Source: Alloyangia pacifica
Lineage (GTDB): Bacteria; Pseudomonadota; Alphaproteobacteria; Rhodobacterales; Rhodobacteraceae
Assembly: GCF_020524285.1 (NCBI RefSeq)
Contig: NZ_JAIVKX010000001.1
Span: 1 to 64,000 of the forward strand
Direction of reading: 5' to 3'
Length of the DNA: 64,000 nt
A program made the position numbers and the translations under genes. Below are positions 1 through 11,968 of this stretch, in pieces; positions within the stretch are counted from its first letter, which is position 1; every line of letters starts with the position of its first letter. The notes beneath the pieces were generated by a model. The model saw nothing but the letters and a program-made list of their open reading frames with translations. It had not been told where the DNA came from and did no database searches.

Positions 1-143
1 CAGTCGAGCCGCTGCGCCTGCTCGCCCCAGAAGCCGTCCGGATCGGAGATCGAGCGCGCGTACATCTCGTCGTAGCGCGCCGCGTCAACATGGGCCTCGG
101 CCACGAAATCCTCGGACGGCGGGTGAAGGACGGGGTGCGTCAT
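1..143 (-). CDS. acs: Acetyl-CoA synthetase, N-terminal part (runs off the window)
   Basis: Only the first 47 codons are present; the gene continues past the left edge. The visible protein starts MTHPVLHPPSEDF and contains YDEMYARSISDPDGFWGEQA, the conserved opening segment of AMP-forming acetate--CoA ligases, which make acetyl-CoA from acetate, ATP and CoA in the cytoplasm. The ATG has a strong AGGAGG Shine-Dalgarno 7-8 bases upstream. It follows livF on the same strand after 273 bases, so it may have its own promoter. The call rests on the N-terminal segment only, since no adenylation motifs are in view. A linked ABC transporter, ScfR-type regulator and CrbS-type kinase agree with a role in acetate use. 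Confidence 0.85.
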   Translation of the reverse strand, partial: MTHPVLHPPSEDFVAEAHVDAARYDEMYARSISDPDGFWGEQAQRLD

Positions 144-215
144 GGTGTCTCCTCCTGTGTTGCCATGCAGGATGCGTGCCGCTGCGGCGAATGCAAGGGC
201 ACATCGCGCGAAGAT

Positions 216-243
216 CGGTCACGAAGTGCGAAAGCCGGTCACG
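216..243 (-). promoter_or_regulatory. Pair of CGGTCACG direct repeats upstream of acs
   Basis: Two identical 8-mers, CGGTCACG, sit at 216-223 and 236-243. Their start-to-start distance is 20 bp, about two helical turns, in the region 73-100 bases upstream of the acs start. This geometry suits tandem binding of an activator on one DNA face. The protein that would bind is unknown; this is a candidate site only. Confidence 0.35.
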
Positions 244-364
244 GATGCGCGGGGGCGCAGGGCAGGTTCCTGGCGGGGAAGCTCATGCGGGCACGTTCAT
301 GCAGGGAGATCCCTGCGGAGAGGTTCATGCGCGCGGGCGGCTCCCCAAAACCGTCCCGCGCGCG

Positions 365-393
365 ACCCGGCGGGTGTCCCCAATCCGCCGGGT
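365..393 (-). terminator. Stem-loop just after livF
   Basis: A perfect 9-bp stem (ACCCGGCGG at 365-373 and CCGCCGGGT at 385-393) with an 11-base loop lies 24 bases beyond the livF stop. The only U-rich stretch (TTTT) is about 15 bases further on, so this may be a weak terminator or a 3'-end stabilising hairpin between the transporter operon and acs. Confidence 0.4.
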
Positions 394-416
394 GTTCCCA
401 GGCGCCGCGACGGCGC

Positions 417-1172
417 TCAGATGGCGAGATACTCGGCGCGCAGTTCCTCGTTTTCAAGCACCTCGGCGGCGCTGCCGTCGAAAACGATGGATCCTGTGTC
501 CAGAATGATCGCCCGGTCGGCAAGCTGCAGCGCGCGCACGGCGTTCTGCTCGACGAGGATCGTGGTCATGCCCTGTTCCTTGATGTGGCGCAGGGTCTTC
601 TCGATCTCGTCAACGATCACCGGCGCCAGCCCCTCGTAGGGCTCGTCGAGCAGCAGCACCTTGATGTCGCGCGCCAAGGCACGGGCGATCGACAGCATCT
701 GCTGCTCGCCGCCGGACAGCGTCACACCTTCTTGCTTGCGGCGCTCGCCGAGGCGCGGGAAGAGGTCGTAGAGCCGCTCGATCGACCAGCCGATCGGCGG
801 CGCGATCTGCGCCAGCTGCAGGTTCTCCTCGACCGTCAGGCCGGGGATGATGCGCCGGTCCTCGGGCACGAGGCCGAGGCCCGCGGTCGCGGCCTCGTAG
901 GAGCTCATCGTGTGCAGCGGCTTGTGGTCGAGCCAGATCTCGCCGCGCTGCACCTGCGGCGAGTTGAGCCGGGCGATGGAGCGCAGCGTCGTGGTCTTGC
1001 CCGCGCCGTTGCGGCCGAGCAGGGCGACGATCTCGCCCTCGTGCACGTTGAAGTTGATCCCCTGCACGATGTAGCTCTCGCCGTAGTAGGAGTGCATGTC
1101 CCACACCGACAGGAAGGCGGGGGCGGTCTCGGCCATATTGGCGTTGCGGGAAAAATCCGGTCTGACGTTCAT
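417..1172 (-). CDS. Branched-chain amino acid-type ABC transporter ATPase (LivF family)
   Basis: A 251-residue ATPase of the LivF type, normal length for the family. Walker A GRNGAGKT is at 53-60, the signature LSGGEQQ begins at 152, and Walker B LLLDEP is at 173-178. It would sit on the cytoplasmic face and energise the two neighbouring permeases. The start is preceded by AAGGAG at good spacing. It is the last gene of the five-gene leftward transporter operon, 12 bases after the livG-like gene, and is followed by acs. The true substrate need not be an amino acid: linkage to acs, a ScfR-type regulator and a CrbS-type kinase suggests a short-chain carboxylate, which is inference. Confidence 0.9.
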   Translation of the reverse strand: MNVRPDFSRNANMAETAPAFLSVWDMHSYYGESYIVQGINFNVHEGEIVALLGRNGAGKTTTLRSIARLNSPQVQRGEIWLDHKPLHTMSSYEAATAGLGLVPEDRRIIPGLTVEENLQLAQIAPPIGWSIERLYDLFPRLGERRKQEGVTLSGGEQQMLSIARALARDIKVLLLDEPYEGLAPVIVDEIEKTLRHIKEQGMTTILVEQNAVRALQLADRAIILDTGSIVFDGSAAEVLENEELRAEYLAI

Positions 1173-1184
1173 CTGGTTCTCTCC

Positions 1185-1940
1185 TTACGCCGCTTCGCCG
1201 AGGTAGGCTTCGCGCACCTTGGGGTGGCCCTTGATGTTCTCGGGGGAATCCTCGACCAGCGGCGTGCCCTGGGCGAGCACGGTGATCCGGTCGGCGAGGC
1301 TGAAGACCACGTGCATGTCGTGCTCGATGATCGCCATGGTGATGTCGCGCTTCTCCTTGATCTCCTTGAGCAGGTCGATCGTGTTGTTGGTGTCGGCGCG
1401 CGCCATGCCGGCGGTGGGCTCGTCGAGCAGCAGCAGGCGCGGCTCCTGGACCAGGCACATGGCCATCTCGAGCCGCCGTTTGTCGCCGCGCGACATGGAG
1501 GCCGAGTGCATGTGCCGCTTGTCGAGCATCTTCACGTCCTCGAGCATCGCCTCGGCGCGGCTGCGCAGCTCGGCCTCGCTTTCGACCGAGCGGAAGGCAT
1601 GCAGCCGGTAGGCGCCATCCCGGCGCGCGAACAGCGGGATCATCATGTTCTCCATCACCGTCAGGTCGCCGAAGATCTCGGGGGTCTGAAACACCCGCGA
1701 AATGCCCATCTGGTTGATCTCGAAGGGCTTGCGGCCGAGCACCGACTGCCCGTCGAACATCACCGACCCGGTATCCGGGATCAGCTTGCCGACGAGGCAG
1801 TTGAGCAGCGTGGACTTGCCCGCGCCGTTGGGGCCGATGATCGCGTGCACGGTGTTCTCCGCGACGCTGAGATTGACCTCGGACAGGGCCTTCAGCCCGC
1901 CGAAGCGCTTGTTGACGTCTTTGACTTCAAGAATGCCCAT
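1185..1940 (-). CDS. Branched-chain amino acid-type ABC transporter ATPase (LivG family)
   Basis: The second ATPase of the transporter, 251 residues from the chosen start. That ATG begins MGILEVKDV and has GAGGAGG six bases upstream, within the tail of the livM-like gene. An ATG 27 bases earlier has a poorer site. Walker A GPNGAGKS is at about 36-43 and Walker B LLLLDEPTAG is intact. The ABC signature is unusual: the position normally occupied by LSGGQ/LSYGQ reads MSRGDKR. This suggests a distinct subfamily rather than a standard LivG, although the protein is complete and the rest of the fold looks normal. It probably forms a heterodimer with the LivF-type subunit. Confidence 0.88.
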   Translation of the reverse strand: MGILEVKDVNKRFGGLKALSEVNLSVAENTVHAIIGPNGAGKSTLLNCLVGKLIPDTGSVMFDGQSVLGRKPFEINQMGISRVFQTPEIFGDLTVMENMMIPLFARRDGAYRLHAFRSVESEAELRSRAEAMLEDVKMLDKRHMHSASMSRGDKRRLEMAMCLVQEPRLLLLDEPTAGMARADTNNTIDLLKEIKEKRDITMAIIEHDMHVVFSLADRITVLAQGTPLVEDSPENIKGHPKVREAYLGEAA

Positions 1941-1950
1941 CTGCGCCTCC

Positions 1951-3159
1951 TCACTCTGCGGGTTCATGGTTGGCCTTGCGGGCGGCGCCGCTGTCTTCCG
2001 GCTTGTTCCGCTTCAGCGCCTTCGAGATGCGCTGGCCGCCTTCCACCAGCCCGCCGGGCAGGAAGATCACCACCAGCATGAACATCAGGCCCAGCGTCAG
2101 GTGCCAGCCCTTGCCCACGAAGGGATGCAGGATGGCGATGACGAAATTCTCCAGCCCGTCGGGCAGGAAGGCGAACCAGCCGTGCAGCACGCCGTCGTTG
2201 ATCTTCGAGAAGATGTTCTCGAAGTACTTGATGAAGCCCGCGCCCAGCACCGGGCCGATCAGCGTGCCGGCGCCGCCGAGGATGGTCATCAGCACCACCT
2301 CGCCGCTCGCGGTCCACTGCATCCGCTCGGGGCCGGCCAGAGGGTCCATCGAGGCCATCAGGCCGCCCGCGAGCCCGGCGTACATGCCCGAGATCACGAA
2401 GACCGCGAGCGTGTAGGGGCGGGCGTTGAGGCCGGTGTAGTAGAGCCGCTGCTGGTTCGACTTGATCGCCCGCAGCATCATGCCGAAGGGCGAGCGGAAA
2501 ATGCGGATCGCCACGTAGAATGCAAGGATCATGATCACCGCGCAGAGGTAGTAGCCGACCGAGAAGTTGAAGCTCCAGCCGGCGACGTCGACGGTGGTGA
2601 AGTGGCGCATCTCCAGGCCGAAGAGGTTGGTCACCGGGATGCCGCCGTCGGCGGTGGCCGAGGCGCCGAGGATGCGCGGATCGTCGAGGGTGATCTGCAG
2701 CCCGGTCTCGCCGTTGGTGATCGGGGTGAGCACCGAGTAGGCGAGGTTGTAGCTCATCTGCGCGAAGGCCAGCGTCAGGATCGAGAAGTAGATGCCCGAG
2801 CGGCGCAGGCTGACGTAGCCGATCATCACCGCGAAGAGCCCCGCCACGATCATTGACAGCACGATCGCCGGGATGACGTTCATGCTCAGCAGCTTGAACA
2901 TCCACACCGCGGCATAGGAGCCCATGCCGAGGAACGCGGCGTGGCCGAAGCTGAGATAGCCGGTCAGGCCGAACAGCAGGTTGAAGCCGATGGCGAAGAT
3001 GCCGAAGATCACGAAGCGCTGCATCAGGTCGGGATAGCCCGCGTTGAACTGCGCCAGCGAGCTGCCGGTGGGGAAGGGGTTGAGGATGAACGGCGCGCAG
3101 AGCGCCAGGATGATCACGACCACGAAGACGGTGGTGTCTTTCTTGCCAAGTCCGAACAT
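1951..3159 (-). CDS. Branched-chain amino acid-type ABC transporter permease (LivM family)
   Basis: A 402-residue inner-membrane permease with many hydrophobic segments. It carries the LivM-type stretch [16 protein letters not shown] and a C-terminal [15 protein letters not shown] segment. A first hydrophobic helix (about 10-26) is followed by a periplasmic loop and then the core helices. Its ribosome site GGAGGAC overlaps the last codons of the livH-like gene, with four bases between stop and start, so translation is probably coupled. It should pair with the LivH-type permease to form the substrate channel. The charged C-terminal tail ([20 protein letters not shown]) is cytoplasmic by prediction. 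Confidence 0.9.
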
Positions 3160-3163
3160 GGTC

Positions 3164-4195
3164 TTAGTCCTCCATCACGCCCTTGCGGCCCATGAGGCCC
3201 CTCGGACGGGTCAGCAGAATGATGATGGCGACGAGGTAGATGATGATCTGGTCGATGCCGGGCAGGATCGACTTGATCTCGTTCATCGACGCGAAGCTCT
3301 CGAGCACGCCCAGAACGAAGCCCGCCAGCACCGCGCCGGGCAGCGAGCCCATGCCGCCGACGACCACCACCACGAAGCTCAGCACGAGGAAATCCATCCC
3401 CATGTGGTAGTTCGGCGAATTGATCGGCGCGTACATCACCCCCGCAAGCCCCGCCACGGCGGCGGCGAGGCCGAACATGATGGTGAAGCGGCGGTCGATG
3501 TTGATGCCGAGCAGCCCCACGGTCTCGCGGTCGGCCATGCCGGCGCGCACCACCATGCCGAAGGTGGTGAACTGCAGGAAGGCGAAGACGGCGCCGACGA
3601 TCAGCGCGGCGAAGCCGAAGTAGACGAGGCGCCAGTAGGGGTAGATGATCACATTGGGATCGAAGCCCAGCAGCACGCCGAAATCGAACGAGCCGCGGAA
3701 CACGTCGGGGGCGGGCGTCGGGATCGGGTTGGCGCCGTAGAAATACTTGATGATCTCCTGCAGCACGATGGCGAGGCCGAAGGTCACGAGGATCTGGTCG
3801 GCATGCGGGCGGCGGTAGAAATGCTTGATCAGCCCGCGCTCCATGATCACGCCGATGGCGATCATCACCGGGATCGAGAAGAGGATGGCCAGAGGCACCG
3901 ACCAGTCGATGATCGTGGCGCCCGCGGCCTCTCCGAACCAGTCGTTGACGTAGGGCACGTCGACCTTCAGCGGGTTGCCGAGAAAGTCCTTGCGGCTCTC
4001 GTCGACCACCTGGTGCGACAGGGTCAGGATGCGGTTGAGGGTGACGGCGCAGAAGGCGCCGATCATGAACAGCGCGCCATGGGCGAAGTTGACCACCCCG
4101 AGCGTGCCGAAGATGAGGGTGAGCCCCAGCGCGATCAGCGCATAGGCCGAGCCCTTGTCGAGCCCGTTCAGGATTTGAAGAATGATTGCGTCCAT
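3164..4195 (-). CDS. Branched-chain amino acid-type ABC transporter permease (LivH family)
   Basis: A 343-residue permease that opens with [20 protein letters not shown] and has the [13 protein letters not shown] segment typical of LivH. It is longer than the usual 290-300 residues. The extra length is a hydrophilic insertion near residues 48-85 (containing [20 protein letters not shown]), placed between the early helices and likely to face the periplasm. That insertion is another sign that this transporter is a separate subfamily, perhaps with a different binding-protein contact. It is separated from the upstream binding-protein gene by about 100 bases holding a hairpin. C-terminal helices end with [17 protein letters not shown]. 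Confidence 0.9.
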
Positions 4196-4227
4196 GTCCC
4201 GGCCTTCAGGTCAAAGGAAGTGCGGAC

Positions 4228-4250
4228 GTTCCCGGCGCGGGGCCGGGAAC
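4228..4250 (-). terminator. Hairpin between binding-protein gene and livH-like gene
   Basis: A perfect 9-bp stem (GTTCCCGGC at 4228-4236, GCCGGGAAC at 4242-4250) with a 5-base loop and no U-tract. In ABC transporter operons such hairpins after the binding-protein gene commonly protect that message or attenuate the rest, giving excess binding protein over permease. Its role here is inference from position. Confidence 0.5.
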
Positions 4251-4299
4251 GCGGGGATGCGGCCAGGCAAACGCGACCTGGCCGGCTCCGGTGAAGGGC

Positions 4300-5646
4300 T
4301 CAGGCGCCCGGGTTGCAGGACCCGAGGTTGCCGCCCGCGAACATCGGGTGATCCGGGGCATATTCCACCTGCGCACGGGGGGTGACCTCGACCACTTCCA
4401 AAAGGTCGAACTCGGATTCCGGGTTCTCCTTGCCGCGCACCACCAACACGTCCTTGAAGCACTGGTGATCGTCGGCGCGGTAGAGGGTCGGGCCGTTGCC
4501 CAGCCCGTCGAACTCGAAGCCCTCGAGCGCGGCGCCCACCTCGCAGGGGTTGAAGCTGCCGGCGCGCTGCACGGCGTCGGCATAGAGCAGGGTCTGCACG
4601 TAGCAGGTGTGCGCGGCCTGGCTCGGCGGGAAGCCGTACTTGGTGCCGAAGCTCTTCACGAAGGCCTTCGAACCCTCGTCCTGCAGCGACCAGTGCCAGT
4701 TGGTCGAGCCGAAAATGCCCTTGACGTTCTCGCCGGCGCCGCGCGCCATCAGGCGCGAATAGAGCGGCACGACGATCTCGAAGTTCTTGCCGTTCACCTG
4801 CTTGTCGCGCAGGCCGAACTGCACGGCGTTGGTGAGCGAGTTCACCATGTTGCCGCCGTAGTGGTTGAGCACCAGCACGTCGGCACCGGAGTTCAGCACC
4901 GGTGCGATGTAGGACGAGAAATCGGTCTGGGCGAGCGGCGTCAGCACGTTGTTGACGGTTTCCCAGCCAAGCGCCTCGGTGGCCGCCTGAATGGATTCCT
5001 GCTGGGTCCAGCCCCAGGTGTAGTCGGCGGTCAGGTGGTAGGCCTTGCGGTCCGAGCCGTACATCTTCTCGAGCACCGGGGCGAGCGCCGCGGCGGACAT
5101 GTAGGCGTTGAAGAAATGGCGGAAGCCGTTGGCCTTCTTGTCCTTGCCGGTGGTGTCGTTGGAGTGCGTGAGGCCGGCCATGAAGATCACGCCCGCCTCC
5201 TGGCACAGGCCCTGCACCGCCACGGCGACGCCCGAGGACGAGCCGCCGGAGATCATCACCGCGCCGTCCTTCTCGATCATCGATTTGGCGCTGGCGCGGG
5301 CGGCGTCGGACTTGGTCTGCGTGTCGCCGGTGACATACTCGACCTTCTTGCCGAGGATGCCGGTGCCATCCAGCGTCTTAGAGCTGAAGGTGTTGATCAT
5401 GCCGCCGTCGCCGCCGCCGTTCAGGTGCTCGACCGCCAGCTCGAAGGCGCGCAGCTCGTCGGCGCCCTCATCGGCATAGGGGCCGGTCTGCGGCACGTTG
5501 AAGCCGAGGGTCACGGTGCCGCCGGTGGGCTCGTTGGTGAAGGCGGATGCGCGCGAGCTGGTGAAGATCGTCGGCAGGGCGACACCGGCTCCCGCCACGG
5601 CACCCGTTCTCAGCACGCCGCGGCGTGTCAGAGTCGATTTGGACAT
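4300..5646 (-). CDS. ABC transporter substrate-binding protein (LivK-like, Tat-type signal)
   Basis: A 448-residue periplasmic binding protein, first gene of the leftward operon. The chosen ATG begins MSKSTLTRRGVLRTG and has GGGAGG seven bases upstream; an in-frame earlier start lacks a good site. A twin-arginine motif (TRRGVL), a hydrophobic stretch and a cut near SRASA suggest export by Tat. The mature part starts with VTLGFNVPQTGPYADEGADE, as in periplasmic-binding-protein fold type I receptors (Peripla_BP_6), but it is about 70 residues longer than LivK. The ligand cannot be read from the sequence. The divergent ScfR-type regulator and the acs gene downstream point to a carboxylate or acyl compound rather than leucine. 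Confidence 0.88.
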   Translation of the reverse strand: MSKSTLTRRGVLRTGAVAGAGVALPTIFTSSRASAFTNEPTGGTVTLGFNVPQTGPYADEGADELRAFELAVEHLNGGGDGGMINTFSSKTLDGTGILGKKVEYVTGDTQTKSDAARASAKSMIEKDGAVMISGGSSSGVAVAVQGLCQEAGVIFMAGLTHSNDTTGKDKKANGFRHFFNAYMSAAALAPVLEKMYGSDRKAYHLTADYTWGWTQQESIQAATEALGWETVNNVLTPLAQTDFSSYIAPVLNSGADVLVLNHYGGNMVNSLTNAVQFGLRDKQVNGKNFEIVVPLYSRLMARGAGENVKGIFGSTNWHWSLQDEGSKAFVKSFGTKYGFPPSQAAHTCYVQTLLYADAVQRAGSFNPCEVGAALEGFEFDGLGNGPTLYRADDHQCFKDVLVVRGKENPESEFDLLEVVEVTPRAQVEYAPDHPMFAGGNLGSCNPGA

Positions 5647-5866
5647 TGATTTCCTCCCGTTTTGAATTTGCACCGCCAGGCTCCTCTTCCCGAGGGTGCA
5701 AAACACGTTTCCGTGCAAAATCAGTATCGGGCCACGAAAGAAAATCGCGCAACAACTGCTTTTAGGTTAACGTTTTTTTTGTCAACAAATGCACAAAGTA
5801 ATAGGCTAAAGTGTAAATTAGTTTATCTTGCGCCGCAGAAAGGCCTTGAAAGGGTTCAAAAACCGC
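5647..5866. promoter_or_regulatory. Divergent promoter region with AT-rich operator-like cluster
   Basis: This 220-base intergenic space is strikingly AT-rich around 5755-5825 in a GC-rich genome. It contains an inverted repeat TTTGT-CA-ACAAA (5778-5789), a GTTAAC palindrome (5766-5771), and further TTTG/TTTA octamers read on the minus strand (TTTGTGCA, TTTGTTGA, TTTACACT). A perfect minus-strand -35 hexamer TTGACA (5785-5780) lies inside the inverted repeat and would serve the binding-protein gene; its -10 is unclear (TAAAAG at 15-base spacing is the best). ScfR-family regulators are known to bind paired TTTGCAAA-like octamers, so the adjacent ScfR-type protein is the likely binder. Confidence 0.5.
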
Positions 5867-7180
5867 ATGCCCCGCGACACGCTCACTGGAAGCCGGATCC
5901 GCGAAAGACGCACGATACTAGGCCTCAAGCAGGCCGATCTTGCACGGAAAGCGGGAATTTCTGCGTCGTATCTCAACCTGATTGAGCACAATCGCCGCAG
6001 AATCGGCGGGAAATTGCTGCTCGATTTGGCGGAAATTCTCAAGGTCGAACCGTCAATGCTCACCGAGGGGGCGGAGGCGGCGCTGATTGCCTCGCTGCGC
6101 GAGGCGGCAAGCACAACCCGGGGCAGCACGGCGGAATTGGACCGGGTCGATGAATTCGCCGGGCGATTTCCCGGCTGGGCCGGGCTTTTGGCAGAGGCAC
6201 GGCTGCGGATCGAAACGCTCGAGCGCAGCGTCGAAACGCTGAGCGATCGGCTGGCCCACGACCCGCAACTCGCCGAGGCGCTGCACGAGATGCTCTCGAC
6301 GGTGACCGCGATCCGCTCCGCCGCGTCGATCCTCAACGAGCCCGAGGAGATCGACCCGGACTGGCAGCGCCGCTTCCACCGCAACATCCACGAGGACAGC
6401 GCCCGGCTCGCCGAGAGCAGCCGCAGCCTCGTGAGCTACCTCGAGGCCGAGGGCAAGGCGGCCAGCGAAAGCGGCACCCCGCAGGAGGAGGTGACCGCGC
6501 TCTTCGAGGCGGCGGCCTATCACTTCCCGGCGCTCGAGGCGGGGCAGGCGCCCGAGGCGGTGGCGGCGGAGCTGGAGGCGGATCTCTCGGACAGCGCCCG
6601 CGTGCTGCTCTTGCGCGCGCTGCGCACCTATGCCGAGGACTCCGCCGCGCTGCCGCTTCCGCAGGTGCTGGAGGCGGTCGCCGAGGACGGGGCCGACCCG
6701 CTGGCGCTGCTGCGCCGCTTCGGCTGCGATCCCGCCCGCGCCATGCGCCGCCTCGCCGCTCTGCCCGGCGAGGCACCCTGCGGCCCGGTCGGGCTGGCGA
6801 TCTGCGACGCCTCGGGGGCGCTGACCTTCCGCAAGCCGCTGCCCGAGTTCCCGATCCCGCGCTTCGGCGCCGACTGCCCGCTCTGGCCGTTGTTTCCCGC
6901 GCTGAGCCGCCCGATGGCGGTGCTCTCGCGGCGGGTGCAGTTCGCCGGGCGGCAGGGCGGGGCGGTGCGCGCCTTTGCCGTGGCGCAGCCCGCCAGCCTG
7001 CCGCAGGCCAACCGCGATCCGATCTTCGAGGCGCACATGATGTTCACCCCCGAAGGACCGGCGCAGGGCGGCGAGGAGACCGAACTGGTCGGCGTCACCT
7101 GCCGCATCTGCGCCCGCGCGGCCTGCCCGGCCCGGCGCGAGCCCTCGCTTCTGGGTGACGCAGCGGAGCGGGGCGGCTGA
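5867..7180 (+). CDS. ScfR/RamB-type XRE-family transcriptional regulator
   Basis: A 437-residue regulator. An N-terminal Cro/XRE helix-turn-helix (about residues 9-65) includes LKQADLARKAGISASYLNLI. A long middle region follows, and then a C-terminal DUF2083-like end with the cysteine motif CRICARAACPARREP. This architecture is that of the short-chain fatty acyl-CoA regulator (ScfR) family, whose members (for example PccR, RamB) control propionate or acetate metabolism by sensing acyl-CoA. The ATG at MPRDTL was preferred over an upstream TTG. It is divergent from the ABC transporter and close to acs, so an acetate/acyl-CoA responsive role is the natural guess. The exact ligand is not shown by the sequence. 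Confidence 0.85.
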   Translation: MPRDTLTGSRIRERRTILGLKQADLARKAGISASYLNLIEHNRRRIGGKLLLDLAEILKVEPSMLTEGAEAALIASLREAASTTRGSTAELDRVDEFAGRFPGWAGLLAEARLRIETLERSVETLSDRLAHDPQLAEALHEMLSTVTAIRSAASILNEPEEIDPDWQRRFHRNIHEDSARLAESSRSLVSYLEAEGKAASESGTPQEEVTALFEAAAYHFPALEAGQAPEAVAAELEADLSDSARVLLLRALRTYAEDSAALPLPQVLEAVAEDGADPLALLRRFGCDPARAMRRLAALPGEAPCGPVGLAICDASGALTFRKPLPEFPIPRFGADCPLWPLFPALSRPMAVLSRRVQFAGRQGGAVRAFAVAQPASLPQANRDPIFEAHMMFTPEGPAQGGEETELVGVTCRICARAACPARREPSLLGDAAERGG

Positions 7181-7291
7181 GCGTGGTCTTATTTTGACAG
7201 GGCCGGAAACATTGGTGATAAAAAGACATCACGGGGGAGCTAGCCTCGGTGCCGGAAGGGGGAGTGTCCGGGGCCTTGGGGAAAGGGGTGC

Positions 7292-7687
7292 ATGTCCAAA
7301 CACGTGCTGCTGATCGAGGATGAGCCGAATATCATCGAGGCGATCAGCTTCATCCTGTCGCGCGAGGGTCTCGCGGTCGAGACCCATTCCGATGGCACCA
7401 CCGCCAACGAGAAGCTGCGCGGCGCCAGCCCCGATCTGCTGATCCTCGACGTGATGCTGCCCGGCAAGAGCGGCTATGACATCCTGCGCGAGCTGCGCGC
7501 CGATCCCGCCACCGCGGCGCTGCCGGTGCTCATGCTCACCGCCCGCGGCCAGACCCGCGACCGCGAGATGGCCGAGCGCGAGGGGGTCAGCGCCTTCATG
7601 TCCAAACCCTTTGCCAATTCCGAGATGCTCGACACGGTGCGGGCGCTGCTGAACGGCGTGCCCGAAGAGGCCCCCGGCAAGCCATGA
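7292..7687 (+). CDS. Stand-alone response regulator receiver (no output domain)
   Basis: A 131-residue single receiver domain. The acidic pair is at D10/E11, the phospho-accepting Asp at D53 (LLILDVMLPG), the conserved Thr in VLMLTARG and the Lys in MSKPF. The protein ends about 15 residues after the domain, so there is no DNA-binding or enzymatic output. Its stop overlaps the start of the next gene (ATGA). It is encoded with a CrbS-type kinase, but the classical CrbR partner is a receiver with a LuxR-type DNA-binding domain. Here the signal must pass to another protein or act by protein contact. ATG start with a purine-rich GGGGAAAGG upstream. Confidence 0.92.
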   Translation: MSKHVLLIEDEPNIIEAISFILSREGLAVETHSDGTTANEKLRGASPDLLILDVMLPGKSGYDILRELRADPATAALPVLMLTARGQTRDREMAEREGVSAFMSKPFANSEMLDTVRALLNGVPEEAPGKP

Positions 7688-7971
7688 GCGAGGGCTCGCC
7701 CCGCCGCGGCACGCCGCCGGTCTTTCTCGAGCGCCAGTCCTACCGGCGCCGCCGGGTGATGGACGCGGCGCGGGTGCTGCCGTTTCTAGGCGCGCTGCTC
7801 TGGCTGGTGCCGCTGCTCTGGCAGGAGGACCCCGAGCAGGGCGTGCGCAGCTCGGCGGTGATCGTCTACCTGTTCGGCGTCTGGCTGCTGCTGGTGCTGC
7901 TGGCGGGGTTCATCGCCTCGGTGCTGGGGCGCCCGGCGCCGGGGGACGGGCTCGGCAGCGGGGGCGAGTGA
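7684..7971 (+). CDS. Small two-helix membrane protein between receiver and kinase
   Basis: A 95-residue protein with an arginine-rich cytoplasmic N-terminus (ERQSYRRRRVMDAAR) and two hydrophobic helices, about residues 24-39 and 58-80, separated by a short acidic loop. I do not recognise a family. Start and stop overlap both neighbours (ATGA and GTGA), so it is translationally coupled into the signalling operon. It may be an accessory subunit of the kinase or its symporter domain. That is inference from position, as no motif points to a function. Confidence 0.8.
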   Translation: MSEGSPRRGTPPVFLERQSYRRRRVMDAARVLPFLGALLWLVPLLWQEDPEQGVRSSAVIVYLFGVWLLLVLLAGFIASVLGRPAPGDGLGSGGE

Positions 7972-10649
7972 GCATGCTCAACACGCTGGTCGCCGTCTGC
8001 ATCGCCTACGCGCTGTTCCTTTTCGCCATCGCCTTCGCCGCCGAGCGCATCGCCGCCCACGGGCAGGCGCGCTGGCTGCGCTCGCCGGCGGTTTACACGC
8101 TGTCGCTGTCGATCTACTGCACCGCCTGGACCTTCTACGGCGCGGTCGGCTCGGCGGTGCGCAGCGGCTTCGAGTACATGGCGATCTACCTCGGCCCCTC
8201 GCTGGTGCTGGTCGGCTGGTGGTGGATTCTGCGCAAGCTGGTGCGCATCGGCCGTTCGCAGCGCATCACCTCGGTCGCCGACCTCGTGTCGTCGCGCTAC
8301 GGCAAGTCCAACCTGCTGGCGGTCGGCGTGACCCTGCTCGCGGTGATCGGCACCACGCCCTATATCGCGCTGCAGCTTCAGTCGGTGACGCTGAGCTTCG
8401 AGGTCTTCTCGGCGGGCGATCTCGCCACCGGCGAGGAGACCGGCCAGACCGCGCTCTGGGTCGCCGCCGGTCTGGCGCTCTTCACGGTGATCTTCGGCAC
8501 CCGCAACCTCGACGCCAACGAGCGGCACAACGGCGTGGTCATGGCCATTGCCGTCGAGGCGGTGGTGAAGCTCTTCGCGCTGCTCGCCGTCGGGGTCTTC
8601 GTGGTCTGGGGGCTGGGCGGCGGGCTGAGCGAGACGCTGGCGCGGATCGACGCCTCGGAGCTGGGCCACTGGCGCATCGACGGCGGCCGCTGGGCCGGGG
8701 TGATGCTGCTCTCGGCCGCCGCCTTCCTCTGCCTGCCGCGGATCTTCCAGGTGCTGGTGGTGGAGAACGACAACGAAACCCATCTGCGCACCGCCAGCTG
8801 GGCCTTCCCGCTCTATCTGGGCCTGATGAGCCTCTTCGTCGTGCCCATCGCGGTGATCGGCCTCGACCTGCTGCCCGAGGGGTCGAACCCCGATCTCTTC
8901 GTGCTGACCCTGCCGCTGTCGCAGGGGCAGGGCGGGCTGGCGGTGCTCTCCTTCCTCGGCGGCTTCAGCTCGGCGACCTCGATGGTCATCGTCGCGGCGA
9001 TCGCGCTGTCGACCATGGTGTCGAACCACGTGGTCATGCCGCTCTGGCTGCGCTTCGCCGAACCCGGCGCCACGGTCTCCGGCGACGTGCGCGGCGTGGT
9101 GCTGCTGGCCCGCCGCCTGTCGATCATCGGCGTGGTGATGCTGGGCTATCTCTACTACCGCCTGTCGGGCGGCGGCGAGGCACTGGCGACCATCGGCTTC
9201 GTCTCCTTTGCCGGGGTCGCGCAGGTGCTGCCGGCGATGCTCGGCGGCATCTTCTGGCGCGGCGCCTCCAAGGCCGGTGCCTTCACCGGGCTGATCCTGG
9301 GCTTCGTGGTGTGGAACTACACGCTCTTCCTGCCCTCCTTCGGGCCGGGGGTGCTGATGCCCGAGGCGTGGTTCGCGGACGGCCCCTTCGGCATCGGTTT
9401 CCTGCGCCCGCAGGCGATGTTCGGCCTGTCGGAGATGGACCCGCTACTGCACGCCTTCTTCTGGTCGATGAGCGTCAACACCGCCGGCTTCATTCTCGGC
9501 TCTCTGGTCAGCTTCCCGCAGCCGCTGGAACGCCTGCAGGGCGCGCAGTTCGTCAATGTCTTCGAGCATTCCACCAGCCCGCGCAGCTGGACCGGCAACG
9601 TGGCGCAATCCGAGGACCTGATGATCATGGCGCAGCGCATCCTCGGCGCGCGCGATGCGCAGGAGCTCTTCGAGCGCGAGGCCGAGCGGCAGGGCGGTCG
9701 CGGCCCGCTGCCCGACGTGACGCCGCAGTTCCTCGAGACCCTCGAGCGCGAGCTGGCGGGCTCCGTGGGCGCGGCGACGGCCCACGCGATGGTCGGGCAG
9801 ATCGTCGGCGGCATGTCGGTCTCGGTCGAGGATCTCATGGCCGTGGCCGACGAGACCGCGCAGATGATGGAATACTCCGCCCGGCTCGAGGCGCAGTCGC
9901 AGGAGCTGGCGCGCACCGCCGCGCAGCTGCGCGAGGCCAATGCCAAGCTCACCCGGCTGTCGGTGCAGAAGGACGCCTTCCTCAGCCAGATCAGCCACGA
10001 GCTGCGCACGCCGATGACCTCGATCCGCGCCTTCTCCGAGATCCTGCGCGACACCGCCGGGCTCGGCGACGCGGAGAAGACCAAATACGCCTCGATCATC
10101 CACGACGAGGCGATCCGCCTGACCCGGCTGCTCGACGACCTGCTGGACCTGTCGGTGCTGGAGAACGGGCAGGTGAACCTGAACCTGCGCGAGGGGCTGC
10201 TGTCGGACGTGCTTGACCGCGCGGTGGCCGCGGCGGCGGCGGACGAGGCCGGGCGTCGGCTGGAGATCCGCCGCGACCGCGCCGCCGAGCAGATCGTGCT
10301 GCACACCGATCTCGACCGGCTCAGCCAAGTGTTCATCAACCTCATCGCCAATGCCCGCAAGTATTGCGACGCGCCGCGCCCGCGGCTCGAGATCTCGGTG
10401 CGGGCGGGGGCGCGGCTGGCCATCGATTTCACCGACAACGGCTCGGGTGTCGCCGCCGAGGCGCAGGACGTGATCTTCGAGAAGTTCAGCCGGGTCAGCG
10501 ACCAGAAGGCCGGGGGCGCGGGTCTGGGCCTCGCGATCTGCCGGCAGATCGTCACGCGGCTTGGCGGCGACATCACCTACGTGCCGGGGCGCGGCGGTGC
10601 CTCCTTCCGGGTGAGCCTGCCTGGCGATCTGGCCATCGCGGCGCAGTGA
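7968..10649 (+). CDS. Sensor histidine kinase with sodium:solute symporter N-terminus (CbrA/CrbS type)
   Basis: An 893-residue fusion. Residues 1 to about 530 are a sodium:solute symporter domain with some 13 hydrophobic helices, including the SIYCTAWTFYGAVGSA segment typical of CbrA/CrbS kinases. A coiled-coil (SARLEAQSQELARTAAQL) leads to a HisKA domain with the phospho-acceptor His677 in ISHELRTPMTS. The HATPase end carries N-box INLIANARKY, G1 DNGSGVA and G2 GAGLGLAI. No PAS or receiver domain is visible. CrbS in Vibrio and Pseudomonas controls acs during acetate use, and here acs is nearby. The GTG start overlaps the preceding stop; an ATG two codons later is possible. Confidence 0.93.
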   Translation: MSMLNTLVAVCIAYALFLFAIAFAAERIAAHGQARWLRSPAVYTLSLSIYCTAWTFYGAVGSAVRSGFEYMAIYLGPSLVLVGWWWILRKLVRIGRSQRITSVADLVSSRYGKSNLLAVGVTLLAVIGTTPYIALQLQSVTLSFEVFSAGDLATGEETGQTALWVAAGLALFTVIFGTRNLDANERHNGVVMAIAVEAVVKLFALLAVGVFVVWGLGGGLSETLARIDASELGHWRIDGGRWAGVMLLSAAAFLCLPRIFQVLVVENDNETHLRTASWAFPLYLGLMSLFVVPIAVIGLDLLPEGSNPDLFVLTLPLSQGQGGLAVLSFLGGFSSATSMVIVAAIALSTMVSNHVVMPLWLRFAEPGATVSGDVRGVVLLARRLSIIGVVMLGYLYYRLSGGGEALATIGFVSFAGVAQVLPAMLGGIFWRGASKAGAFTGLILGFVVWNYTLFLPSFGPGVLMPEAWFADGPFGIGFLRPQAMFGLSEMDPLLHAFFWSMSVNTAGFILGSLVSFPQPLERLQGAQFVNVFEHSTSPRSWTGNVAQSEDLMIMAQRILGARDAQELFEREAERQGGRGPLPDVTPQFLETLERELAGSVGAATAHAMVGQIVGGMSVSVEDLMAVADETAQMMEYSARLEAQSQELARTAAQLREANAKLTRLSVQKDAFLSQISHELRTPMTSIRAFSEILRDTAGLGDAEKTKYASIIHDEAIRLTRLLDDLLDLSVLENGQVNLNLREGLLSDVLDRAVAAAAADEAGRRLEIRRDRAAEQIVLHTDLDRLSQVFINLIANARKYCDAPRPRLEISVRAGARLAIDFTDNGSGVAAEAQDVIFEKFSRVSDQKAGGAGLGLAICRQIVTRLGGDITYVPGRGGASFRVSLPGDLAIAAQ

Positions 10650-10744: not shown

Positions 10745-11968
10745 ATGCCAGACGCCGCCGGACAGGCTTCCAGACAGGCCAGCGCAGGGGCCACCGCCGA
10801 GGGCAGGGAGACGCGGGGCAGCAGCGGGGCCGGCAGCCACAACGTGCTGAGCCGCAAGGCCGAGGCTGCGCGCCGCGCCTTCGAGGCGCGCGCCATGTCC
10901 CCGGCCAAGGCGCTGCGCCGGGCGCTCTCGCGCAGTGCCGACGTGCTGTGGGATCTCGCGCTCGTCGCCCATGCGGTCGAGCAGGAGCATCTCGACCAGG
11001 ACGGGGTCGTCGCGCAGCTGCCGCCCGAAGCGCTGCTGCTGCTGCTCGACGGGCCGGACGGGGTGGTGGGCTTCGTCACGCTCGACCGCGATCTCGTCAC
11101 CGGGCTGACCGAGGTGCAGACCATGCTGCAGGTCACCCAGATGCCCGCCGACCCGCGCCCCTTCACCGCCACCGATGCCGCGATGACCGCGCCGCTGCTC
11201 GATGGCATGCTCGAGCGTTTCGCCCGCTTCCTCGAGGATCATCCTCTGCGCCCGCAGATCGAGGGGTTCCGCTTCGGCGCCATGCTCGAGGATGCGCGCG
11301 GCGCCGGGCTGCTGCTCGACGCGCCGGGCTACATGGTCTTCCGCGCCACGCTCGATCTCGCGCTGGGGCGGCGGCGCGGCGAATTGCGGCTGTTCCTGCC
11401 CGAGCGTCCCGGCGCGCGGCGGGCGGTGCCGCCGGGCCAGCCCGGCGCGCATGAGCGGAAGATGGCGCTCCTGCCGGCGCAGATGCGCGCGGTGCTGGGG
11501 GCCCTGCGCCTGCCGCTGAAGAAGGCGGAGGCGCTGCAACCCGGCGATCTTCTGCCGCTGAGCCCCGAGATGCTGGAGGCGGTGACCCTGCACGCCGGCC
11601 CCGGCGCCGCGGTTGCGGGCGGGCGGCTCGGGCAGATCAACGGCATGCGCGCGGTGCGCCTCACCTGGCCGCATGTCGCACCGCAGGGAGAGGCGCAGGA
11701 CACCCGCGGGGCGGCACGCTCCTCCGGAACCGCGCCGCCCGAGGTCGCCAAACCCGTTCCTGCCGCCGAGCCCGAGGAATTCGGCCTCGACGAGATGGCC
11801 GCCGGTCTTCCGGACCTGCCCGACCTGCCGGAGCCCTCGGCTGGGGATTTCGACTTTTCCGGAGGCTTCGAGGGCGAAAGGCCGGAAGAAGGGGCAGAAA
11901 CGGAAGACAGCGCGACCACCGACTTCGATTTCGACTTCTCCGCCGCGCCGCTGGACGACGACGGCTGA
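10745..11968 (+). CDS. Orphan FliM/FliN-family (SpoA) protein with acidic tail
   Basis: A 407-residue protein. The N-terminal half (LSRKAEAARRAFEARAMSP onward, to about 200) resembles the FliM middle region. Residues about 250-305 (LRLPLKKAEALQPGDLLPLS...LGQINGMRAVRL) look like a SpoA/FliN surface-presentation domain. These domains build the flagellar switch C-ring. The last 70 residues are an acidic, low-complexity tail rich in D, E, F and P (DFDFDFSAAP). No flagellar genes are nearby, so it may be an accessory FliM/FliN-like protein of Rhodobacterales. The first 35 residues are low complexity, and the exact start among early codons is not certain. Confidence 0.7.
   Translation: MPDAAGQASRQASAGATAEGRETRGSSGAGSHNVLSRKAEAARRAFEARAMSPAKALRRALSRSADVLWDLALVAHAVEQEHLDQDGVVAQLPPEALLLLLDGPDGVVGFVTLDRDLVTGLTEVQTMLQVTQMPADPRPFTATDAAMTAPLLDGMLERFARFLEDHPLRPQIEGFRFGAMLEDARGAGLLLDAPGYMVFRATLDLALGRRRGELRLFLPERPGARRAVPPGQPGAHERKMALLPAQMRAVLGALRLPLKKAEALQPGDLLPLSPEMLEAVTLHAGPGAAVAGGRLGQINGMRAVRLTWPHVAPQGEAQDTRGAARSSGTAPPEVAKPVPAAEPEEFGLDEMAAGLPDLPDLPEPSAGDFDFSGGFEGERPEEGAETEDSATTDFDFDFSAAPLDDDG

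Follow-up and report, generated by a model that had tools for sequence, protein, structure and literature searches.

Gene set and conservation

The window analysed here is a stretch of 64,000 nucleotides from Alloyangia pacifica (contig NZ_JAIVKX010000001.1, positions 1 to 64,000), whose first part, up to position 10,649, carries a Liv-type ATP-binding cassette (ABC) transporter flanked by an acetate-CoA ligase gene (acs) and, at its opposite end, by genes for a ScfR-type regulator, a lone receiver and a sensor kinase. Base 1 of the window is the contig end (G000:C1:1), which truncates acs to its first 47 codons (1..143, minus strand; translation MTHPVLHPPSEDF...). On the same strand lie the genes for the LivF-type ATPase (417..1172; signature LSGGEQQ), the LivG-type ATPase (1185..1967; signature SMSRGDKRR), the LivM-type permease (1951..3159), the LivH-type permease (3164..4195; 343 aa, with a conserved extra stretch at about residues 50–100) and the LivK-type substrate-binding protein with a type I periplasmic fold (4300..5646; 448 aa). 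The divergent scfR/livK promoter region contains a two-box element, TTTACA-N26-TTGACA (5780..5817, minus strand), beyond which the plus strand encodes the ScfR-type transcription factor (5867..7180; residue numbering starts at base 5873), a stand-alone receiver domain of 131 aa without output domain (7292..7687; Asp53 codon 7448–7450), a small protein of 95 aa (7684..7971) and a non-hybrid SLC5/STAC-type sensor histidine kinase of 893 aa (7968..10649; His677 codon 9996–9998). All five components whose clustering had been described in an earlier note on this DNA, namely acs, the Liv-type set, the ScfR-type regulator, the SLC5-type kinase and the lone receiver, were located as it said.

Linkage beyond the source genome was sought by a neighbourhood search across relatives and proved to be conserved, so that the refuting case named in the earlier note, a lack of such linkage, did not arise. 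In the best 80 of 501 confirmed LivK relatives from named genomes, a set biased to close kin, the order kinase-receiver-ScfR<>LivKHMGF is intact within the reach of each contig: ScfR and LivH stand beside LivK in 80/80 loci, the receiver in 78/80, the kinase in 77/80, and LivF and LivG in 76, the loci short of receiver or kinase (L027, L047, L054) sitting at contig ends. A few near loci carry other DNA between receiver and ScfR. The acs gene directly follows livF in 45 of 76 near loci; where it is missing, other genes come after livF, and accC lies downstream in many loci with and without acs. At L014, a locus of the latter kind, a 178-aa protein of LuxR type, so named from its sequence (L014:15450-15986), is encoded between livF and accBC, and its relatives occur near accC in many loci. 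Behind the kinase, a protein with a FliM/FliN C-terminal domain (window 10745-11968) is present in 62/80 loci, and BisC/TMAO reductase was found in none of the 80.

We further searched 115 genomes drawn evenly from the class Alphaproteobacteria with profiles, using bars that were set after viewing the lists (LivK above 800 bits, kinase above 900 bits, and for ScfR a match through the HisKA-like stretch described below). Fifteen genomes contain such a HisKA-type ScfR, 14 contain LivK and 17 the kinase. LivK and HisKA-type ScfR occur together in 12 genomes (LivK only, 2; ScfR only, 3; neither, 98; p 6.4e-12), kinase and HisKA-type ScfR in 14 (kinase only, 3; ScfR only, 1; neither, 97; p 2.8e-14). 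Outside the source genome, 13 of the 14 ScfR loci were fetched as stretches of 16.5–19.5 kb, 12 of them from other families, leaving out that of genome G078. LivKHMGF adjoins ScfR in 11 of the 13, the remaining two (L162, L163) having kinase, receiver and ScfR without it; L164 has its acs between livF and the receiver, and L157 has no receiver in its stretch and one on another contig. Synteny and co-occurrence across genomes rule out a chance neighbourhood.

Parts of the set also occur in other company. Kinase orthologues without HisKA-type ScfR were found in three genomes (G101, G070, G065), and in G101 the orthologous kinase and receiver are found together with a sodium symporter of the VC_2705 family (729 bits against a cut-off of 321), a PAS-exonuclease and a DUF294-CBS protein, genes of kinds that often accompany acs in other genomes. 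G050 has the same transporter beside a hybrid kinase with PAS, HisKA, HATPase and REC, the first part of which matches PDB entry 10ed, and an adjoining LuxR-type regulator; among NCBIfam models, the latter matches ErdR best (231 bits against a cut-off of 390). No kinase, receiver or ScfR match was obtained within the 19.5 kb of L168 (G071), where LivKHMGF is present, nor within the 19.5 kb of L170 (LivK 38.6%).

In its five-gene K-H-M-G-F composition and its folds, the transporter resembles the Liv/Urt ABC importers, from which it differs in the LivG signature SRGDK, long LivH and LivK, an unusually conserved LivK and scores below cut-offs. The LivH insertion, the long binding protein and the altered LivG signature had been listed in the earlier note as departures from the norm; they are real, but they are conserved traits of this transporter family and not peculiarities of the window. 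LivH measures 335–348 aa in 80 of 81 sequences (the remaining one, from L027, is truncated at a contig end), LivK spans 445–463 aa over the 80 loci, and LivG reads SRGDKRR in 74 of 76 sequences (SRGNKRR in 1, masked in 1), with the LivF signature LSGGEQQ kept in 77/77. Across 24 near and class-wide members, LivK is 68–93% identical to the window protein, a high value for a binding protein, and its residues R8 and R9, which can be read as a putative twin-arginine signal, are invariant in 24/24. A database LivK from Alloyangia pacifica shows 99% identity. Against the NCBIfam cut-offs, LivF scores 192/441, LivG 224/362 and LivH 102/379 bits (equivalogs) and LivM 82/366 bits (subfamily), and the curated cut-offs of the urea transporter UrtABCDE were not reached either (best UrtD, 240 of 304 bits). 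An ordinary Liv or Urt transporter was rejected on these scores, which lie under every listed cut-off. The titles of the solved structures nearest to LivK name no ligand, and the ligands of its other top-ranked fold relatives are aromatic acids, urea, amides or amino acids.

The two-box element and acs

A TTKACA pair spaced 31–33 bp start to start was found in 66 of 81 scfR/livK regions (32 bp in 65), against an average of 0 across 50 base-composition shuffles; this set of 81 is also where the element was first noticed. The 32-bp pair recurs in 6 of 11 scfR/livK regions from the fetched class-wide loci. In the source genome of 5.7 Mb, the exact pattern TTTACA-N25/26-TTKACA occurs twice, once in the scfR/livK region and once 156 bp before the start codon of a second acs copy; a reversed control pattern also occurs twice, so that the count is not above chance and it is the positions that are telling. 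Upstream of stand-alone acs genes, a relaxed TTKACW pair, chosen after a first look at the data, is present in 6/7 cases (mean of 3000 shuffles, 0.005 of 7) and the stricter TTKACA pair in 5/7. Of nine acs genes placed after livF, none has the pair, and the element is absent at the acs of L119, a copy 77.8% identical to its sister.

For the scans of further genomes, the exact pattern TTTACA-N25/26-TTTACA was fixed beforehand. Twenty-six genomes of the family, among them the source genome with its already known site, yielded 24 sites, of which 11 lie upstream of acs, 7 between livK and scfR and 6 elsewhere; a single genome (G154) holds 5 of the 24, including 4 of the six found elsewhere, and 11 of the 26 genomes lack an exact site. 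The reversed control gave 11 sites in total, whose positions were not inspected. In 14 genomes of other families, 5 exact sites were found, 3 of them between livK and scfR, 1 upstream of the receiver gene of G094 and 1 at another place. In G094 the receiver gene has gone from the island to another contig, and the two-box element upstream of it (G094:C141:38352-38389, L197) looks as if the gene had kept its regulation after moving. The classical ScfR box TTTGCAAA was considered as the shared element and rejected, being present in only 2/81 scfR/livK regions. The shared cis-element links the transporter/regulator promoter to acs even in genomes that have acs at another place, in support of the reading given in the earlier note.

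The 47-codon fragment is taken to be acs because relatives carry the complete gene at the same place and because its gene ends match the starts of other contigs in the same genome. A full-length AMP-forming acetate-CoA ligase was looked for: the window holds the 47 codons, and the body of the gene was not found in the source-genome assembly, its ends being found on other contigs. The source genome has two acs copies that are identical at both gene ends (window 1-143; starts of C32, C3 and C4); exactly 119 bp are common to C1 and C32, likewise to C3 and C4, and divergence begins close to the acs gene ends. This suggests that identical copies, the result of gene conversion or recent duplication, were collapsed in the assembly. 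Pairs of acs copies elsewhere are 98.65% identical over 1931 bp (G003) or 77.8% identical (G007). Of 76 contigs, 18 stop at most 2.1 kb past livF, and for 16 of these the break falls inside acs, whereas no contig stops in the following 2.1 kb; in 11 of the 14 genomes whose contigs stop near livF, at least two acs pieces are among the matches listed. Near-identical acs copies seem to break assemblies across the clade. Directly after the acs stop lies an adenylate-kinase-like frame (L103:1-400, G000:C4; named from sequence), whose product could recycle the AMP made by Acs, and a TRAP-like transporter (DctPQM by open reading frame (ORF) reading; L101:559-3782, G000:C32) is divergent to the second acs copy, facing the two-box promoter.

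A HisKA-like domain in ScfR and its probable signalling partners

The window ScfR combines an XRE helix-turn-helix (HTH) with PF09856 (38.3 bits, cut-off 24; matched at E<=1 in 75/75 scanned members) and shows a PrpR-like fold with conserved cysteines. A HisKA/DHp-like domain (residues 114–200; 6212..6472, plus strand) separates the DNA-binding domain from the acyl-CoA domain; its His138 (codon 6284–6286) is invariant in 75/75 aligned members as one of 35 invariant family columns and is retained in 13 of 14 ScfRs from other class-scan genomes; of eight canonical ScfRs, none matches HisKA. A profile comparison with HisKA gave 96.2%, and Pfam HisKA exceeds its cut-off in the relatives L162 (38.7 bits) and L163 (33.8 bits), the window protein itself reaching 13 bits against the cut-off of 26.9 (E 0.11). 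The sole structural support is a predicted helical hairpin (131–155 and 162–199), the lists from whole-model fold searches having been filled by HTH and PrpR matches. An M78/IrrE-like part, detected by Pfam in L162 and L163, was not detected by Pfam in the window ScfR. Identity with RamB (NF038139) was rejected, the match amounting to 82 bits in two stretches (best, residues 3–130) against a cut-off of 700 bits.

With RamB, PccR and MccR/PrpR, the window ScfR has in common the XRE HTH, the PrpR-like domain with conserved cysteines and two-box operators; it differs in the HisKA-like insertion after the HTH region and in a box spacing of 31–32 bp start to start. Two similar boxes with a spacer are common for ScfR sites, with 18 bp between boxes, according to the available text of PMC10370305, which also contains a passing mention of a ScfR clustered with a two-component system (Pden_1785 or Pden_2985 of Paracoccus denitrificans). 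From its domain make-up, a ScfR switch appears to have incorporated that part of a sensor kinase which receives the phosphate, and outside and inside signals could in this way be read together. The HisKA-like domain in ScfR and the adjoining lone receiver together suggest a phosphorelay through this domain, and dual control by a kinase and an acyl-CoA sensor, as had been proposed for the cluster, is now better founded.

The kinase carries PF00512 (HisKA) and PF02518 (HATPase). Its symporter part remained unmatched by Pfam SSF; residues 4–459 match PDB 10ed, 'histidine kinase', with 228.8 bits, and the family profile matches the same entry over positions 4–607 with 308.7 bits, as expected for an SLC5/STAC kinase, in which a symporter-like membrane part is joined to HisKA and HATPase. 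With the CrbS/CrbR (MxtR/ErdR) acetate system, which pairs a hybrid, REC-containing kinase with a LuxR-type regulator, the island shares an SLC5-type kinase and the link to acs and acetate transport; in contrast, the window kinase is not hybrid, lacks REC and has no PAS in Pfam, the receiver (only 131 aa) has no DNA-binding domain, the candidate output is ScfR with its HisKA-like domain, and the linked transporter is an ABC system instead of ActP. The CbrA/CbrX/CbrB system of Pseudomonas likewise has a non-hybrid SLC5 kinase and a small ORF for two predicted helices overlapping the kinase start (by 17 nt for cbrX in the part of PMC8871633 at hand, versus 4 nt in the window), whereas CbrB has its own DNA-binding output and the pathway serves histidine and carbon control. 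The small ORF of the window (7684–7971) is present in 64/80 loci; its 95-aa product can be read as a putative protein of two membrane helices, and it recalls CbrX before CbrA (PMC8871633, same part). RpuS/RpuR of Sinorhizobium fredii, also built on an alphaproteobacterial SLC5/STAC kinase serving a carboxylate transporter, differs in using a LuxR-type regulator, the MctP symporter and pyruvate, as far as the accessible sections of PMC9100948 go.

Proposed circuit and alternative explanations

Judged from sequence, the probable tasks of the gene set are uptake, activation and sensing of acetate or a closely related compound, and we lean towards regarding it as an island, conserved in Alphaproteobacteria, that scavenges acetate or a similar short carboxylate and includes a full kinase-receiver-ScfR circuit. 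LivKHMGF would serve as a high-affinity ABC importer of acetate or a similar short carboxylate, and Acs would convert the imported acid to acyl-CoA. The SLC5/STAC kinase would sense the substrate via its symporter-like part and phosphorylate the lone receiver, from which the phosphoryl group may pass on to His138 in the HisKA-like domain within ScfR. ScfR, reading acyl-CoA as well via its PrpR-like Fe-S domain, would act, presumably as an activator, on TTTACA-type box pairs, spaced by about three turns of the helix, that lie at acs and in the scfR/livK promoter. That a phosphorelay ends in a transcription factor in this way, one DNA-binding protein merging external carboxylate and internal acyl-CoA and driving an ATP-powered acetate importer together with acs, is a tentative proposal that we regard as somewhat less likely than not. 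Kinase and ScfR belong to known families, and the transporter to a known superfamily; the gene combination, the HisKA insertion in ScfR and the acs-livK element were not found described in the literature searched, with subscription journals mostly outside it. CrbS/R is required for acetate use in gammaproteobacteria and in S. fredii (PMC9100948, PMC5715377, available portions). In the available portion of PMC9870897, SPO1848-1850 of Ruegeria pomeroyi, annotated as a branched-chain amino-acid ABC transporter and, we infer, orthologous to the island transporter, responded to Micromonas exometabolites.

Several observations weigh against this reading. The acs gene was not found after livF in 31/76 near loci (two contigs, L068 and L083, being too short to tell) and lies within only 2 of the 13 fetched class-wide stretches of 16.5–19.5 kb; the 14 genomes of other families that were searched gave no exact element at acs, and for this reason an acs-including regulon is shown for the family only. 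In L164, ScfR has Phe at the position of His138 while the remaining island is present, and Pfam HisKA is weak in single sequences, with E<=1 in 24/75 members and in 6 of 13 class-wide ones (L161 being listed only to E 0.01). G078 has ScfR without kinase or LivK over the bar, in a genome that is 68% complete and on a contig that starts inside scfR. The island stretch of G015 (L160) contains a receiver and no kinase, and the only over-bar kinase of this genome is encoded on a different contig together with a separate receiver, for which reason it may be a paralogue and not the partner. RpuS, a related SLC5/STAC kinase, serves pyruvate (PMC9100948, in part). Finally, when transposon mutants of Cereibacter sphaeroides were screened on acetate plates, two other acetate-compromised mutants, both in one unrelated gene, and no such transporter were reported in the available part of PMC12632250, in a species not checked for the island.

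The cargo and the reader of the boxes can each be seen differently. The same island and circuit might import another short carboxylate or an acetate precursor, such as pyruvate, propionate, lactate or an amide, with acs present because the product meets acetyl-CoA metabolism. Fold relatives of LivK that bind aromatic acids, urea, acetamide or a 2-oxo acid, the permeases and ATPases, which match the Urt models best, if below cut-off, and the pyruvate uptake served by RpuS in the same kinase family (PMC9100948, in part) speak for such a cargo; the recurrent partner of the shared element is acs, however, at 11 of 24 sites, and we consider another cargo unlikely, if not strikingly so. An ordinary branched-chain amino-acid transporter lying beside acetate genes by accident is highly improbable: some database entries are so named and the Pfam family of Liv-type binding proteins matches, but the scores fall far under the Liv cut-offs, LivK is too uniformly conserved in near and class-wide members (68–93%), and both the conserved linkage and the element common with acs argue otherwise. 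A regulator other than ScfR might also read the two boxes, a candidate being the LuxR-type protein downstream of livF in many relatives, since the binding of ScfR is deduced. Against this, the element occurs between scfR and livK in near as well as class-wide members, and paired like boxes are common for ScfR sites, though with 18 bp between them there (PMC10370305, in part), making another reader an unlikely explanation in our view.

More weight, though still on the doubtful side, is given to the possibility that the HisKA-like domain is a dimer-forming relic, with ScfR answering acyl-CoA alone and kinase and receiver signalling elsewhere. HisKA domains also dimerise, L164 does without the histidine, most single sequences score poorly against HisKA, and the transfer from kinase to ScfR is itself deduced. 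Against a relic, His138 is kept in 75/75 members, as one of 35 invariant columns, and in 13 of 14 ScfRs from other class-scan genomes; furthermore, an output-less receiver accompanies the HisKA-type ScfR, and the kinase is present in 14 of the 15 genomes that have it.

If the proposed phosphorelay is true, a transcription factor with the phospho-acceptor domain of a kinase would represent an unusual merger of two-component and metabolite sensing. Several families have kept transporter, regulator and receiver, so the circuit is testable in tractable strains. Acetate ranks among the main small carbon sources, and a phrase search of the literature for an ABC importer of it turned up one paper. 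The island offers a defined gene set and operator with which its import by an ABC transporter may be tested.

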